DNA of 64,000 nt. It comes from Kiritimatiellia bacterium (GTDB taxonomy: Bacteria; Verrucomicrobiota; Kiritimatiellia; CAIVKH01). Numbering within the stretch: position 1 is the stretch's first letter; the number at the start of each line of letters is the position of its first letter. The notes beneath the pieces are model-generated. The model did no database searches, was not told the DNA's origin, and saw nothing but the letters and a program-made list of their open reading frames with translations. Below are positions 29,403 through 34,392 of this stretch, piece by piece. A program made the position numbers and the translations under genes. The stretch spans positions 1 to 64,000 of the forward strand of contig JANWZO010000005.1 of assembly GCA_025054615.1 (NCBI GenBank), written 5' to 3'.

Positions 29403-30074
29403 TCAATCATTCTGCAGGCGCTCGATCAGCGGAAGCACTTCATCCGGTCGCTCCACAACGGCCTGGGCTCCGGACGCCCAGAGCTCGTCCGCCGTCCGAA
29501 ATCCCCACGCGGCGCCAGCGGCGAACATGCCCGCCGCTCGTGCGGTTTGCATGTCCGTGGACGTGTCGCCGAGATAAAAGACTTCCTCGGGAGGGACACT
29601 CATCTGAGCGGCGGCTTGCAGCGCCCCTGCAGGATGGGGCTTCCTCGCGATGTCCTCGCGCTGTCCCAACACGCAGGCAAATGGCCAACGCGACAGATAT
29701 CCCTCAACGCACTTCAGCGTCATCGCATGCGGTTTATTGGACAAAATGCCCAGGCGGAACCCGCGAGCGACCAGCGCATCCAACAGATCGGATACGCCGT
29801 CGTACAGGCGTGTGTGGACGTTCCAGTTTTTCTCGTAGATCGCGCGATATTCGTTCAACGCGGCGTGAATTGTATTTGGGTCACGCTGATGTTCGGGGAG
29901 AGCCCGCGTGATGAGCATCGCCGCCCCGTCCCCCACGAGGTAGCGGTAGGCTTCGATCGGATGGACGGGCAGTCCTCGCGCCTCCAACATCCGATTCACG
30001 GATTCGCCGAGGTCCCGAAGCGTGTCGAGCAAGGTGCCGTCCAAATCGAACAAAACGGCCCGGAACCGTCTCAT
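29403..30074 (-). CDS. gph: HAD-family phosphatase, probable phosphoglycolate phosphatase
   Basis: A 223-residue HAD hydrolase with all four motifs: DLDGTLLDT (nucleophile and acid aspartates), LSNKP, the lysine of RKPHPAG, and YLGDTSTDM. The helical cap and overall length match Gph, which removes phosphate from 2-phosphoglycolate made during DNA repair or photorespiration. The start overlaps the methyltransferase stop by four bases (ATGA). Substrate is inferred from family resemblance. Confidence 0.85.
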   Translation of the reverse strand: MRRFRAVLFDLDGTLLDTLRDLGESVNRMLEARGLPVHPIEAYRYLVGDGAAMLITRALPEHQRDPNTIHAALNEYRAIYEKNWNVHTRLYDGVSDLLDALVARGFRLGILSNKPHAMTLKCVEGYLSRWPFACVLGQREDIARKPHPAGALQAAAQMSVPPEEVFYLGDTSTDMQTARAAGMFAAGAAWGFRTADELWASGAQAVVERPDEVLPLIERLQND

Positions 30075-30736
30075 CGAATCCCCCAGACAAGGACATGGCG
30101 GTCGCTCGGAGTTTCAACGTGAAGGCGGGCCAATCCGGCCGCGCGCAGATGTTCGCGGATTTCATTCGGCGTGAAAGCCGCGCAGAGCGAGTGGAAGAAG
30201 TCCTCTTTGAGCACGGCCGGCTCGCCTTGTGTGTAGAGGTCGGTCAGCCGTCGTGCCTCTTCTCCCGAATCAGGACGCCGCAGGTCGGCGATGAACACCA
30301 CCGTACCGGGTTGCGCCCAGCGAGCGATGTAACCCCACAGCATTAGGGGGTCATGAAGGTGATGCAACAGGCTGTTGCTCAGAATGACCCGGTAGGGCGG
30401 GTAAGGCGGCCGCCAATCCGGCAGGCGGCCGAGGTGAAGCCGGACGCGTTCTCCGACCTTCGGGAACCGCTCGCGGCAGATTGATGACGCCGCAATCATT
30501 GCAGGCGAGCCGTCAACGCCGTCGATGGTCCAGCCGGGATACGCGTCGGCAAATCGAAGCGCTACATCGCCGGGTCCGCACCCAAGGTCGAGCACGCGCG
30601 CGAACTCTGGCGCATCCGGAAATCGCTCGCGGAAGAGTTCGACCAGTCGGCTGTGCGGCGCCTCGAAATAGGCTCGGGCATAGGCCTCAGCCTGGTCATG
30701 GCGCTCCATCAGTTCCGGTTCGAGGATTCGCTGCAT
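30071..30736 (-). CDS. SAM-dependent methyltransferase
   Basis: A 221-residue class I methyltransferase. The SAM-binding motif VLDLGCGPGDVAL spans about residues 48-60, the acidic end of strand 2 is IDGVDGS, and post-motif LSNSLLHHLHDP marks the active-site side. Similar to small-molecule methyltransferases; no substrate can be assigned. It overlaps the HAD gene by four bases, and the divergent EboD gene starts 57 bases away. Confidence 0.85.
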   Translation of the reverse strand: MQRILEPELMERHDQAEAYARAYFEAPHSRLVELFRERFPDAPEFARVLDLGCGPGDVALRFADAYPGWTIDGVDGSPAMIAASSICRERFPKVGERVRLHLGRLPDWRPPYPPYRVILSNSLLHHLHDPLMLWGYIARWAQPGTVVFIADLRRPDSGEEARRLTDLYTQGEPAVLKEDFFHSLCAAFTPNEIREHLRAAGLARLHVETPSDRHVLVWGIR

Positions 30737-30793
30737 GTGTCGCTCGCTGGCATGAATGGCGTTGCCATGTTATCGTTCGCAGCATTCATCGCA

Positions 30794-31957
30794 ATGACGG
30801 ACACGATCCTCCAGCGAATCAGCGTGCCGTTCGAATATCCGGTTGTCTTCACTCGATCGGTTTTTTCGCCGTCGAATCCGGTGCTGCAGAAGACGGTTTG
30901 CCAAAAGGAGCCCTCGCGTCGACACCGGATACTGGCCGTGGTGGATGCCGGCGTTGCGAGGGCGAGGCCAGGCCTCATAGAGGAAATTCAGGGCTATGCG
31001 AGCGCATATTCGGAGCGACTTGAGCTGGTCCATCCGCCTCGCGTCGTGACGGGCGGAGAGGCGGCGAAGAACGATGTCATGGGGTTGGCGGCGCTAATCA
31101 ACGCGATGGTCGAGCGACGGCTCTGCCGCCAGTCCTTCGTCGTGGTGGTCGGAGGCGGGGCGGTCCTGGATGCTGTCGGTTTCGCCGCCGCGCTCGTGCA
31201 CCGGGGGCTTCGATTGATTCGCATCCCTACGACCGTCCTTGCCCAGTGCGACAGTGGCGTTGGGGTCAAGAACGCCATCAATCTGAATGGCGTCAAAAAC
31301 CTGGTGGGCACCTTCGCGCCGCCGTTTGCGGTGGTCAATGATTTCGATTTTTTGCGCACGCTGCCTGAGGGCGCCTGGACCGATGGCATCGCAGAGGCCT
31401 TCAAGGTCGCGATCATCAAGGACCGCGTATTTTTTGACTGGTTGACATCCCACGCCTCGGACCTGCGCGCTCGCGACGAGCAAGCAATGGAGTATCTGAT
31501 TCGACGCTGCGCGGAGCTGCACTTGGAGCACATCCGCTCACACGGAGACCCCTTTGAATTTGGGTCCGCAAAGCCGCTGGATTTCGGTCACTGGTCGGCG
31601 CACCGCCTTGAGGCCATGTCGAATTATCGCATCAGCCACGGGCGGGCGGTGGCGATCGGACTCGCGCTGGACGCCGCGTATGCCGTCGCCAAAGGCTGGT
31701 TGTCACCCGCCGATTTTGACCGGCTTTACCTCGGCCTCGCGCAGGCCGGCTTTGAGCTCTGGCACGAGCTGCTGGAGAAAAAGAGGGACGGTGAACTCGA
31801 CCTAATGCGGGGCTTGCAGGAGTTCCAGGAACATCTGGGCGGAGACCTGTCGTTGACCATGCCGGACGGCATCGGCGCCGCGCGCGAGGTCTTCGAAATG
31901 GATCCCGCCCTCATTGCCGCCTCCATCGCCGAGCTCAAACGGCGCGCGGGCCGATGA
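30794..31957 (+). CDS. eboD: EboD-type 3-dehydroquinate synthase homologue
   Basis: A 387-residue sugar-phosphate cyclase-family protein. The start QRISVPFEYPVVFTR is typical of EboD. The NAD loop is in VVGGGAVLDAVGF, and IPTTVLAQCDSGVGVKNAINLNGVKN is the substrate loop. The three metal ligands are kept: Glu in DGIAEAFKV, and His in FGHWSAHRLE and ISHGRAVA. Ebo pathways were described for metabolite traffic, for example the scytonemin precursor in cyanobacteria; the natural substrate is unknown. The ATG at 30794 is chosen from homology, since the frame is open to 30653. It overlaps eboE by four bases. Confidence 0.88.
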   Translation: MTDTILQRISVPFEYPVVFTRSVFSPSNPVLQKTVCQKEPSRRHRILAVVDAGVARARPGLIEEIQGYASAYSERLELVHPPRVVTGGEAAKNDVMGLAALINAMVERRLCRQSFVVVVGGGAVLDAVGFAAALVHRGLRLIRIPTTVLAQCDSGVGVKNAINLNGVKNLVGTFAPPFAVVNDFDFLRTLPEGAWTDGIAEAFKVAIIKDRVFFDWLTSHASDLRARDEQAMEYLIRRCAELHLEHIRSHGDPFEFGSAKPLDFGHWSAHRLEAMSNYRISHGRAVAIGLALDAAYAVAKGWLSPADFDRLYLGLAQAGFELWHELLEKKRDGELDLMRGLQEFQEHLGGDLSLTMPDGIGAAREVFEMDPALIAASIAELKRRAGR

Positions 31958-33120
31958 ATCGGTACGCGATGCGGCTGACCTACTGCCTGAATGTGCACCC
32001 CGGCGAAACGTGGGCCGACCAGTTTGCCGCCGTAGAACGATATGCGCTTCGCGTGCGTGACCGCGTTGCGCCTTGCAGTCCATTCGGACTCGGAATGCGC
32101 CTCAGTGCTCGGTCTGCCGTCGAGCTTGCCGAGCCACAGCTCCTCGAGGCGTTCCGTCGCTTTTTGCGCGAGAATGAGCTCGTGGTCGAAACGATCAACG
32201 CATTTCCGTATGGCGCATTTCATGGCGTTCGCGTCAAAGAGCAGGTGTATCGGCCGGATTGGCGGACGGAGGAGCGCGCGGAATTTACCCGAAACGCTGC
32301 GCGAATACTCGCTTCGCTTTTGCCGCCAGGCGCGCGCGGAAGCATTAGCACCGTGCCCGTCGGTTACGCGCCCGACTTCGCGGGCGAGGAGGACCGCCGG
32401 CTGGCGGCCCGCCGGCTTGTTGAACTGGCGCGATTCCTGGCTGACCTCGAGGATCGCAGCAGTGTCCGCGTGGGATTGGCGCTGGAGCCCGAACCTGGCT
32501 GTGTGCTGGAGACGTGCGAAGAGGCTATCGAGTTTCACCAGTTCTGCCGCGAGTGTGCTGGCGCGAATGCGGATCTGGTGTCGCGATATCTAGGGGTCTG
32601 CCTCGACACCTGCCACGCGGCGCTTGCGTTTGAATCGCCAGCCGATGCCTGGCTCCACTATGTACGGGCTGGCGTGCCGGTCATGAAGGTGCAGGTTAGT
32701 GCGGCCCTCGAAGTGGCAGGACCGCCGCCGACGGAGCTGGCGCGGTTCATCGAGCCCGTCTATTTACACCAGGTCCGAATGCTCCTTCGCGACGGGCGCC
32801 GAGCAGGCTGGCCGGATTTGCCCGAGGCCCTCGGATCGTGGCCTGAAGACGCCGAAATCGCGCGGATCCATTTCCACGTGCCTCTTCACTGGGGTGGCAG
32901 TGGAGCGCTGCGCACCACTCGCGGCACAATGGACGCCCGCTTTTGGAATCGGATCCGAAACTCGCCGGAAATTCAGGTTGAGGTCGAGACCTACACCTTT
33001 GAGGTCCTGCCCCCGGAGTTGCGTGAGGGGGGTGTGGTCGATAGCATCGCGCGCGAGCTGGCTTGGGCGCAGCGGTATCTGTCCGAGCGCACGGCGGACC
33101 ATGAGAATATCTCAATTTAA
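31954..33120 (+). CDS. eboE: EboE-type metabolite traffic protein (TIM barrel)
   Basis: A 388-residue sugar-phosphate isomerase/xylose-isomerase-like barrel. Recognisable EboE features are the opening LTYCLNVHPGETWADQF, ETINAFPYGAFHG, the metal-ligand-rich CLDTCHAALAFE and HFHVPLHWGG. It is translation-coupled to eboD. The UraD-like gene begins inside its last 20 bases. No signal peptide, so it should be cytoplasmic. The exact reaction is not established for the family. Confidence 0.88.
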   Translation: MNRYAMRLTYCLNVHPGETWADQFAAVERYALRVRDRVAPCSPFGLGMRLSARSAVELAEPQLLEAFRRFLRENELVVETINAFPYGAFHGVRVKEQVYRPDWRTEERAEFTRNAARILASLLPPGARGSISTVPVGYAPDFAGEEDRRLAARRLVELARFLADLEDRSSVRVGLALEPEPGCVLETCEEAIEFHQFCRECAGANADLVSRYLGVCLDTCHAALAFESPADAWLHYVRAGVPVMKVQVSAALEVAGPPPTELARFIEPVYLHQVRMLLRDGRRAGWPDLPEALGSWPEDAEIARIHFHVPLHWGGSGALRTTRGTMDARFWNRIRNSPEIQVEVETYTFEVLPPELREGGVVDSIARELAWAQRYLSERTADHENISI

Positions 33121-33646
33121 TGCCCTTTCGACGGACGAAGCCGTCCGCGATTTGCTTAAATGTTGTGGTTCCCGAAGGTGGGCCATGCTGATGGCCGCGC
33201 GGCGACCGTATCCCTCGCTGGCTTCCGTTCTGGAGTCGGCTGCTGAAATTTTCGCGAGGTTGGATCCCGCGGATCGGCTCGAGGCGTTTCAAAGCCAGCC
33301 GGGGATCGTTCAACTCGCTGAGCTGCACCGTGAGGAGGACCTCTCAACCTTCGAGCCGACCGCGGGTCGGACATTGAGTCGAAGGGCGAAGGGGCGGTCG
33401 GGCGCGCTGGACGAGCTGGCCCGGGCTGATGAGCAGGCTCGACGTCGATTTGGCTTTCCCCTCGTGATATGCCCTGTGGGACGTAGCGTGGAGACATTGC
33501 TGGAGATCGCTCGCGCCCGTGTGAGAAACCGAAAGGAGGAAGAGATCCGAGCCGCCTCAGAAGAGCTGCTGTCCTGGATGAAGATCCGCCTCGGCGCCCT
33601 GTTTCGCGAAGAGACCCTCGCAAATCCTTCCTCGAACAACGATTAG
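33101..33646 (+). CDS. UraD-fold (OHCU decarboxylase-like) protein lacking active-site residues
   Basis: 181 residues. The N-terminal half reads like OHCU decarboxylase (UraD/HpxQ): SQFNALSTDEAVRDLL, a Cys pair, W, then AARRPYPSL. The late region FGFPLVICPVGRS and the RVRN motif also match. At the catalytic position the family has HPxIG; here it is QPGI (66-69), so the general histidine is glutamine. The S-x-x-E-Q motif is replaced by SRRAKG, removing the glutamate. The protein probably does not decarboxylate OHCU. The start ATG 33101 overlaps eboE by 20 bases, suggesting coupling. Confidence 0.8.
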   Translation: MRISQFNALSTDEAVRDLLKCCGSRRWAMLMAARRPYPSLASVLESAAEIFARLDPADRLEAFQSQPGIVQLAELHREEDLSTFEPTAGRTLSRRAKGRSGALDELARADEQARRRFGFPLVICPVGRSVETLLEIARARVRNRKEEEIRAASEELLSWMKIRLGALFREETLANPSSNND

Positions 33647-33657
33647 GATTCGTCGCC

Positions 33658-34002
33658 ATGGCTTGTCCCATCACCGTGCGCCTGATTGATTCAACAGATG
33701 GCCGACCGGCTGCTGGAATCCACGTTGTCCTCCAGTTTTGGGAAGCGAATCGCGATTGGCGCACCGTCACCGAAACGCTAACCGGTGCGGATGGCGGCTC
33801 CGGCGCGTGGTTGCCCGATGACGCCGCGTTACCTGCAGGGACCTACCGCTTGATGGTCGATACAAGGGCCTATTTCCAGCGAAGGCGCGCGGTGGTCACG
33901 TTTCCCTTGGTTCCGGTGGTGTTCGACCATCGACTTCGGGATCCGCAGACACGGCTGTGCATCTTGCTTTCGCCGCACGGCTACACGGCGTATCGCGAAT
34001 AA
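33658..34002 (+). CDS. HIU hydrolase/transthyretin-fold protein lacking active-site residues
   Basis: A 114-residue transthyretin-like domain. Family landmarks are present: TVRLIDSTDGRPAAGI, GTYRLMVDTRAYF and a C-terminal LSPHGYTAYRE, equivalent to LSPYGYSTYRGS of 5-hydroxyisourate hydrolase. The catalytic histidine of the first strand is Arg8. The DGR arginine is glycine (ADGGSG). The HYH motif before LLLSP reads QTR. The YRGS end is cut to YRE. It sits 11 bases after the UraD-like gene. Both genes keep the folds of consecutive uric-acid enzymes, yet neither keeps the chemistry. Confidence 0.8.
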   Translation: MACPITVRLIDSTDGRPAAGIHVVLQFWEANRDWRTVTETLTGADGGSGAWLPDDAALPAGTYRLMVDTRAYFQRRRAVVTFPLVPVVFDHRLRDPQTRLCILLSPHGYTAYRE

Positions 34003-34044: not shown

Positions 34045-34392
34045 GTGCAAGGGGCGATTCAGATCATTCTTGTTGTCTTCCTCGCGCTGCCAACGTCACT
34101 GTTTGCTCGCGTCTGTTTGAGTCCCGATTGTGAGACGGCCTGCTGCGTGCAAGAGGCGTCTAGCGCGGATGCTCACAATCCTCATGCCTCTTGTTGCATC
34201 GAGGTCCCGATGACAACGGATCGGACGGCGGCGCCCGTGCGAACTCACATCGAGACGGAATGCCCTGCACTGCGGGGAAGTATCCAAGACACGCAAATCC
34301 GAGCGTTCGAGCGGCCCCTCCCGCGTCAGACCGAATTTAGATCTTCGGATTCACTCCGTCGCCTCGCGACGCTTCGAATATTCCTCATTTAG
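34045..34392 (+). CDS. small cysteine-rich exported protein
   Basis: 115 residues from GTG, with a signal peptide (QIILVVFLALPTSLFA). The mature N-terminus is cysteine-rich: CLSPDCETACC, then ASCC (Cys24, 29, 33, 34, 50, 51), followed by another in ECP. The spacing suggests metal or thiol binding. The C-terminal half has no features. No ribosome-binding site precedes the GTG. It lies 100 bases upstream of the HlyD/ABC operon, a place where accessory metal or stress proteins are common. Coding status is moderately supported. Confidence 0.5.
   Translation: MQGAIQIILVVFLALPTSLFARVCLSPDCETACCVQEASSADAHNPHASCCIEVPMTTDRTAAPVRTHIETECPALRGSIQDTQIRAFERPLPRQTEFRSSDSLRRLATLRIFLI

Follow-up and report, generated by a model that had tools for sequence, protein, structure and literature searches.

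A probable relict of a uricolysis operon behind eboDE in a Kiritimatiellia bacterium

Two short genes at the tail of eboD and eboE in a Kiritimatiellia bacterium encode proteins with the folds of OHCU decarboxylase (UraD) and 5-hydroxyisourate hydrolase (HIUase, HiuH), and both lack key catalytic residues of these families. With good confidence we read the pair as the remnant of an eroded uricolysis operon, a relict double pseudoenzyme. In relatives of the same family the complete operon is found at this site, and the locus thereby offers a clean view of the states before and after a pathway was lost. The two leftover proteins probably keep their fold but not their chemistry.

The window is a 64,000-nucleotide stretch of contig JANWZO010000005.1, from a draft genome of 51 contigs that is 95% complete. 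It was compared with seven relatives of the same family, the eight genomes together representing the order in our collection, and with a phylum sample of 388 genomes, where eboE is found in 155, UraD in 28 and HIUase in 38. Features of the locus are collected in Table 1.

Table 1 Features of the eboDE-uraD-hiuH locus, in window coordinates
Feature	Position	Strand	Basis
HAD phosphatase, phosphoglycolate-phosphatase type; flank common to G002, G004 and G005	29403..30074	-	HAD_2
Methyltransferase, divergent from eboD; flank common to G002	30071..30736	-	Methyltransf_23; 56% identical orthologue at the same position in G002
eboD, 3-dehydroquinate synthase-like sugar-phosphate cyclase; start codon approximate	30743..31957	+	PRK06203, 535 bits; DHQ_synthase
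eboE, intact, normally conserved	31954..33120	+	NF035939, 394.7 bits (cut-off 250)
eboE/uraD junction, site of allantoinase (and allantoicase) in relatives	33100..33120		Synteny with L097, L102, L103
UraD-like probable pseudoenzyme, OHCU decarboxylase fold, 181 aa	33101..33646	+	PF09349, motif losses, AF2 model, structural neighbours
Altered active-site segment of the UraD-like protein, residues 66-99, containing a two-codon in-frame insertion	33296..33397	+	Alignment with relatives
uraD/hiuH junction, 11 nt, site of the DUF6986 gene (~1.35-1.45 kb) in relatives	33647..33657		Synteny with L097, L098, L100, L101, L102
HIUase/transthyretin-like probable pseudoenzyme, 114 aa	33658..34002	+	PF00576, motif losses, AF2 model, TM

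Folds and residue losses of the two proteins

The original prediction had recognized both families from the letters alone, and Pfam profile searches agree. The UraD-like protein matches OHCU_decarbox (PF09349) along practically the whole domain (79.3 bits, 5.9e-22, profile positions 1-154 of 155), and the HIUase-like protein matches Transthyretin (PF00576; 76 bits, 4.3e-21). Both score below the NCBIfam thresholds set for the enzymes: the former reaches 84 against 139.4 for TIGR03180, 106.8 against 124 for NF010372 and 28.9 against 96.25 for TIGR03164, and the latter 73 against the TIGR02962 equivalog cut-off of 87.45.

In the UraD family, the histidine of HPxIG and the glutamate of S-x-x-E-Q are catalytic. 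Alignment with intact homologues upholds the predicted loss of both, as H66Q and E91T. The HPxIG region additionally carries G70V and D71Q, and WASGEQ has turned into T-A-G-R-T-L (W87T, S89G, G90R, E91T, Q92L). The catalytic His and the Glu-Gln of SGEQ are thus absent from the window protein and intact in all five aligned relatives. In total, 38 of the 75 sites invariant among these relatives are altered, against 0-5 for the other members when each is left out; chance does not account for this, and eboE has no comparable excess. The losses are unevenly spread, with 1 of 20 invariant sites changed in residues 1-63 and 37 of 55 in residues 64-166 (Fisher 9e-7, a somewhat optimistic value given that the split point was picked after inspection of the data). 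The two-codon insertion, which is in frame, is the only internal change of length.

The HIUase-like protein has lost the strand-A histidine (H8R), the DGR arginine (R47G) and the last histidine of HYH (H99R), and its YRGS end reads YRE; 22 of 53 sites invariant in relatives are altered. The three catalytic residues and YRGS are intact in the four relatives aligned. The predicted losses at the three catalytic positions therefore stand, and the prediction overreached at two others. Tyr112-Arg113 of the YRGS end are retained, with Gly-Ser alone gone, and only the Y-H part of HYH is invariant among relatives, its first histidine being a tyrosine in G006. Across the two proteins, the aligned relatives keep HPxIGD, WASGEQ, THVLD, DGR, the Y-H pair and YRGS.

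AF2 models, for which the input alignments had five and six rows, retain both folds, with a mean pLDDT of 83.8 for the UraD-like and 87.7 for the HIUase-like protein. In the former, values below 50 are confined to the C-terminal tail and to residues 85-98, which belong to the active-site region. Its best structural neighbours are OHCU decarboxylases. It shares the fold and near full-length homology of UraD (PDB 2q37, 2o70, 3o7h), but not the HPxIG His, the SGEQ Glu and Gln or a score above the enzyme cut-offs. The HIUase-like model aligns with HIUases and transthyretins at a TM of ~0.9. It resembles HiuH (PDB 2gpz, 2g2n, 4q14) in its fold and in the Tyr-Arg near its C-terminus, and differs in lacking the equivalents of His8, Arg47 and His99, the terminal Gly-Ser and a score above the TIGR02962 cut-off.

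The operon in relatives and the loss of the pathway

In six of the seven relatives there is an operon with an allantoinase-type gene and a UraD with intact motifs, the UraD of G007 being a fragment at a contig end. Pfam assigns the proteins of these operons to allantoinase-type amidohydrolases, Allantoicase, OHCU_decarbox, DUF6986 and Transthyretin/HIUase. DUF6986 and HiuH are present wherever the contig extends far enough, and allantoicase in five of the six. The order is allB-alc-uraD-DUF6986-hiuH in G002-G005 and allB-uraD-DUF6986-hiuH in G006; in G007, allB-alc is followed by the end of the contig within uraD. Directly upstream of allB stands eboE in G002, G006 and G007. In G003 eboE is on the operon's contig at a distance of ~36 kb, G004 yields no eboE match, and neither eboD nor eboE occurs in the stretch read around the operon of G005. 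The HAD orthologues of G002, G004 and G005 lie beside the purine operon or beside the eboDE genes next to it.

G002 and the window have the entire upstream frame in common. In G002, the order HAD-MTase<>eboD-eboE-allB-alc-uraD-DUF6986-hiuH corresponds to HAD-MTase<>eboD-eboE-uraD-hiuH in the window. The window thus resembles the bacterial urate/allantoin operon of G002-G006 (PuuD, HiuH, UraD, allantoinase, allantoicase) in the order and place of uraD and hiuH and in its orthologous HAD, methyltransferase, eboD and eboE flanks. It differs in having no PuuD, allantoinase, allantoicase or DUF6986, and in that its two remaining proteins lack catalytic residues.

These absences hold for the whole window genome at its level of completeness. 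Searches returned no DUF6986, no allantoicase (PF03561) and no PuuD-type Urate_ox_N domain (PF06181), the last being present in all six operon-bearing relatives; the Pfam uricase (PF01014) is found in none of the eight genomes. PuuD is described as a membrane, cytochrome c urate oxidase that completes the urate pathway (PMC4562309). No allantoinase orthologue was found either. The best match in the window genome contains a single TGA within its aligned part and shares 34% identity, which is what the paralogous second copies in relatives reach, against 56-73% for the operon orthologues. The genome accordingly has neither a urate oxidase nor the downstream allantoin enzymes that would make up a urate degradation operon.

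We now propose a course of events for the window lineage. The ancestral order in the family would have been eboD-eboE-allB-alc-uraD-DUF6986-hiuH; the gene for a PuuD-type urate oxidase would have stood at another genomic site. Genome comparison shows that the lineage has lost PuuD, allantoinase, allantoicase and the malate-synthase-like DUF6986 gene, a loss that leaves the HiuH and UraD steps with neither substrate supply nor outlet. HiuH and UraD would then have shed the catalytic residues now missing from both, and the two short frames persist behind eboDE.

Several observations on the relatives' operons can be added. In G006 (L102:1-4848; genome 87% complete) the operon is intact on one contig, with allB, uraD, DUF6986 and hiuH kept and no allantoicase match genome-wide; this may possibly represent an earlier stage of erosion. 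In G005 (L101:7515-12951), each of the genes hiuH, alc and HAD is interrupted and continues in a second frame. We considered decay of alc and hiuH there and rejected it: the HAD gene is broken as well and the assembly comprises five contigs, which suggests indel errors, probably those of a long-read assembly. In every relative whose sequence covers that stretch, DUF6986 (L100:8083-9435, L102:3119-4507, L097:6804-8249) separates uraD from hiuH. One copy weakly matches a malate synthase TIM-barrel, and use of glyoxylate in the manner of a malate synthase would be in keeping with this.

Weighing the alternatives

The start of the UraD-like gene within the end of eboE was correctly predicted: its ATG at 33101 produces a 20-base overlap, and it lines up with the N-termini of the relatives' UraD proteins. 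The original prediction inferred a reuse of both folds, for an ebo-related substrate or for binding. The overlap and a likely shared transcript speak for such a reuse within the ebo system, where the pair would bind or process an ebo-related metabolite. EboD and EboE both belong to their ebo families (Table 1), and in Nostoc the ebo genes have been tied to metabolite export (PMC6282210). However, orthologues with normal uricase-pathway neighbours, named in advance as evidence against reuse, exist in the same family. The pair's ebo neighbourhood is inherited, because an intact purine operon already stands directly behind eboE in G002, G006 and G007, and it is thus uninformative on a new partnership. 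In the phylum sample, UraD adjoins eboE solely in the window's family, there within the purine operon; in the other genomes compared, the two are on separate contigs or at least 100 kb apart, and eboE has no uraD or hiuH nearby. UraD and HiuH are therefore not regular ebo members in this sample, and a conserved eboE-uraD-hiuH module recurring across the phylum was looked for there and not seen. Among the eight genomes of the order, no other carries the altered pair, and none has an EboC match above cut-off. We regard reuse within the ebo system as improbable. By comparison of gene order the adjacency is ancestral and, on these data, unrelated to the catalytic loss; ebo and the pair are neighbours by history and not by a shared function that has been shown, which corrects a tempting functional link.

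A sequencing, assembly or alignment artefact is scarcely credible. The draft state of the genome speaks for it, but both frames are intact with starts that align to those of relatives, the neighbouring genes are normal, and eboE is normally conserved, with 87 of 94 relative-invariant sites kept and 7 altered, similar to its relatives. A frameshift pair or misread frame behind the altered UraD stretch, allowed for by the original prediction, was looked for and rejected: relatives match the annotated frame alone, so no frame switch explains the stretch.

Could both proteins instead be enzymes with new active sites? Their folds are kept in the AF2 models, and the alterations cluster about the active site, a pattern that is clear in UraD. 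Against this, a single sequence defines no new conserved motif, and the active-site loop of the UraD-like model has a pLDDT below 50. Residues 8 and 99 of the HIUase-like protein, both arginine, align with His6 and His95 of the Salmonella dublin HIUase, and fast hydrolysis of 5-HIU was lost in its mutants H6A and H95A (PMC4324301). We hold changed catalysis to be rather unlikely.

Plain decay, in which both genes are young, unselected and functionless remnants caught before any stop or frameshift, deserves more weight and is a possibility that we take seriously while leaning away from it. The pathway partners are absent from the genome, and catalytic residues have gone together with about half of the invariant sites of UraD. 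In codon models, uraD evolves faster on the window branch (own omega 0.14 versus 0.04, lnL gain 19.4), these values being rough because synonymous sites are saturated and several branch lengths are at their bounds. For hiuH the gain of 2.0 is about at the usual threshold, and eboE is not accelerated. An omega of 1 across the whole window branch is rejected (lnL worse by 6.8 for uraD and 8.1 for hiuH), but letting constraint give way to neutrality costs little against a free omega (3.3 lnL units for uraD and 1.6 for hiuH), so that the evidence against a late neutral phase is not strong, least of all for hiuH.

Several features of the two sequences argue against such decay. In simulations, neutral drift alters as many sites as observed at ~1.0 (uraD) and ~0.8 (hiuH) substitutions per codon. 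The nonsense fractions are 0.036 and 0.034, so that ~6.5 and 3.1 nonsense mutations would be expected, ~10 in total even with frameshifts left uncounted, and none is seen. The single internal length change of UraD is in frame, and its N-terminal third has been spared. The changes are also milder than neutral ones: at t = 1.0, their mean BLOSUM score was reached in 11 of 400 neutral simulations for uraD and in 3 of 400 for hiuH. Since the frames are open and the folds seemingly preserved, weak selection for folding probably persists on both proteins, a retention that we infer from the single genome in which the altered pair is known.

A possible role and wider occurrence

We put the chance that this operon remnant keeps a non-catalytic function at about even. 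Its overlap with eboE should couple translation. The likeliest residual role is a non-catalytic one, in which an HIUase-type tetramer with an altered active-site channel would bind some small ligand, possibly in partnership with the UraD-like protein, which is helical.

Vertebrate transthyretin, an HIUase turned hormone carrier, offers an analogy. In the Arabidopsis TTL, a His, an Arg, a His and a Tyr are reported to be important for HIU hydrolase activity and stand in place of transthyretin Lys15, Glu54, Thr106 and Thr119 (PMC2834698). The first three positions are replaced in the window protein too, by Arg, Gly and Arg. The fourth, Thr119 in transthyretin and Tyr in HIUases, is still Tyr. 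The window protein further differs in that it gives no sign of hormone binding, and its change accompanied the loss of a pathway. After this loss, both folds may have been retained jointly in order to bind without catalysis, having given up the catalytic positions that transthyretin lost too; we think this speculative extension of the analogy unlikely. If sister genomes keep both inactive folds, the locus would allow a natural test of the frequency with which enzymes persist as binding proteins once their pathways are gone, and would offer a bacterial counterpart to the origin of transthyretin from an enzyme.

Literature searches found no UraD/HiuH pseudoenzyme pair in bacteria. A scan of the contig collection gave no matches with the window protein as query; with the family alignment, it returned UraD genes in many phyla and one G006 record (CALGMT010000056.1). 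Directly after hiuH, and ahead of a membrane-fusion/ABC export set, the window contains a small cysteine-containing frame (34045-34392) with no match in Pfam or NCBIfam.

Finally, a UraD-like protein from another family of the same phylum (L194:6324-6788, equal to G082:C1:1460823-1461287; also L065) has the HPxIG histidine replaced by glutamine (VQPDF) and an altered SxxEQ (PTERA). The search of the phylum sample returned no HIUase match in its genome, and its gene lies near genes that we take to be lgt-like and valS-like. Judging from its motifs, it looks like an independent UraD pseudoenzyme.
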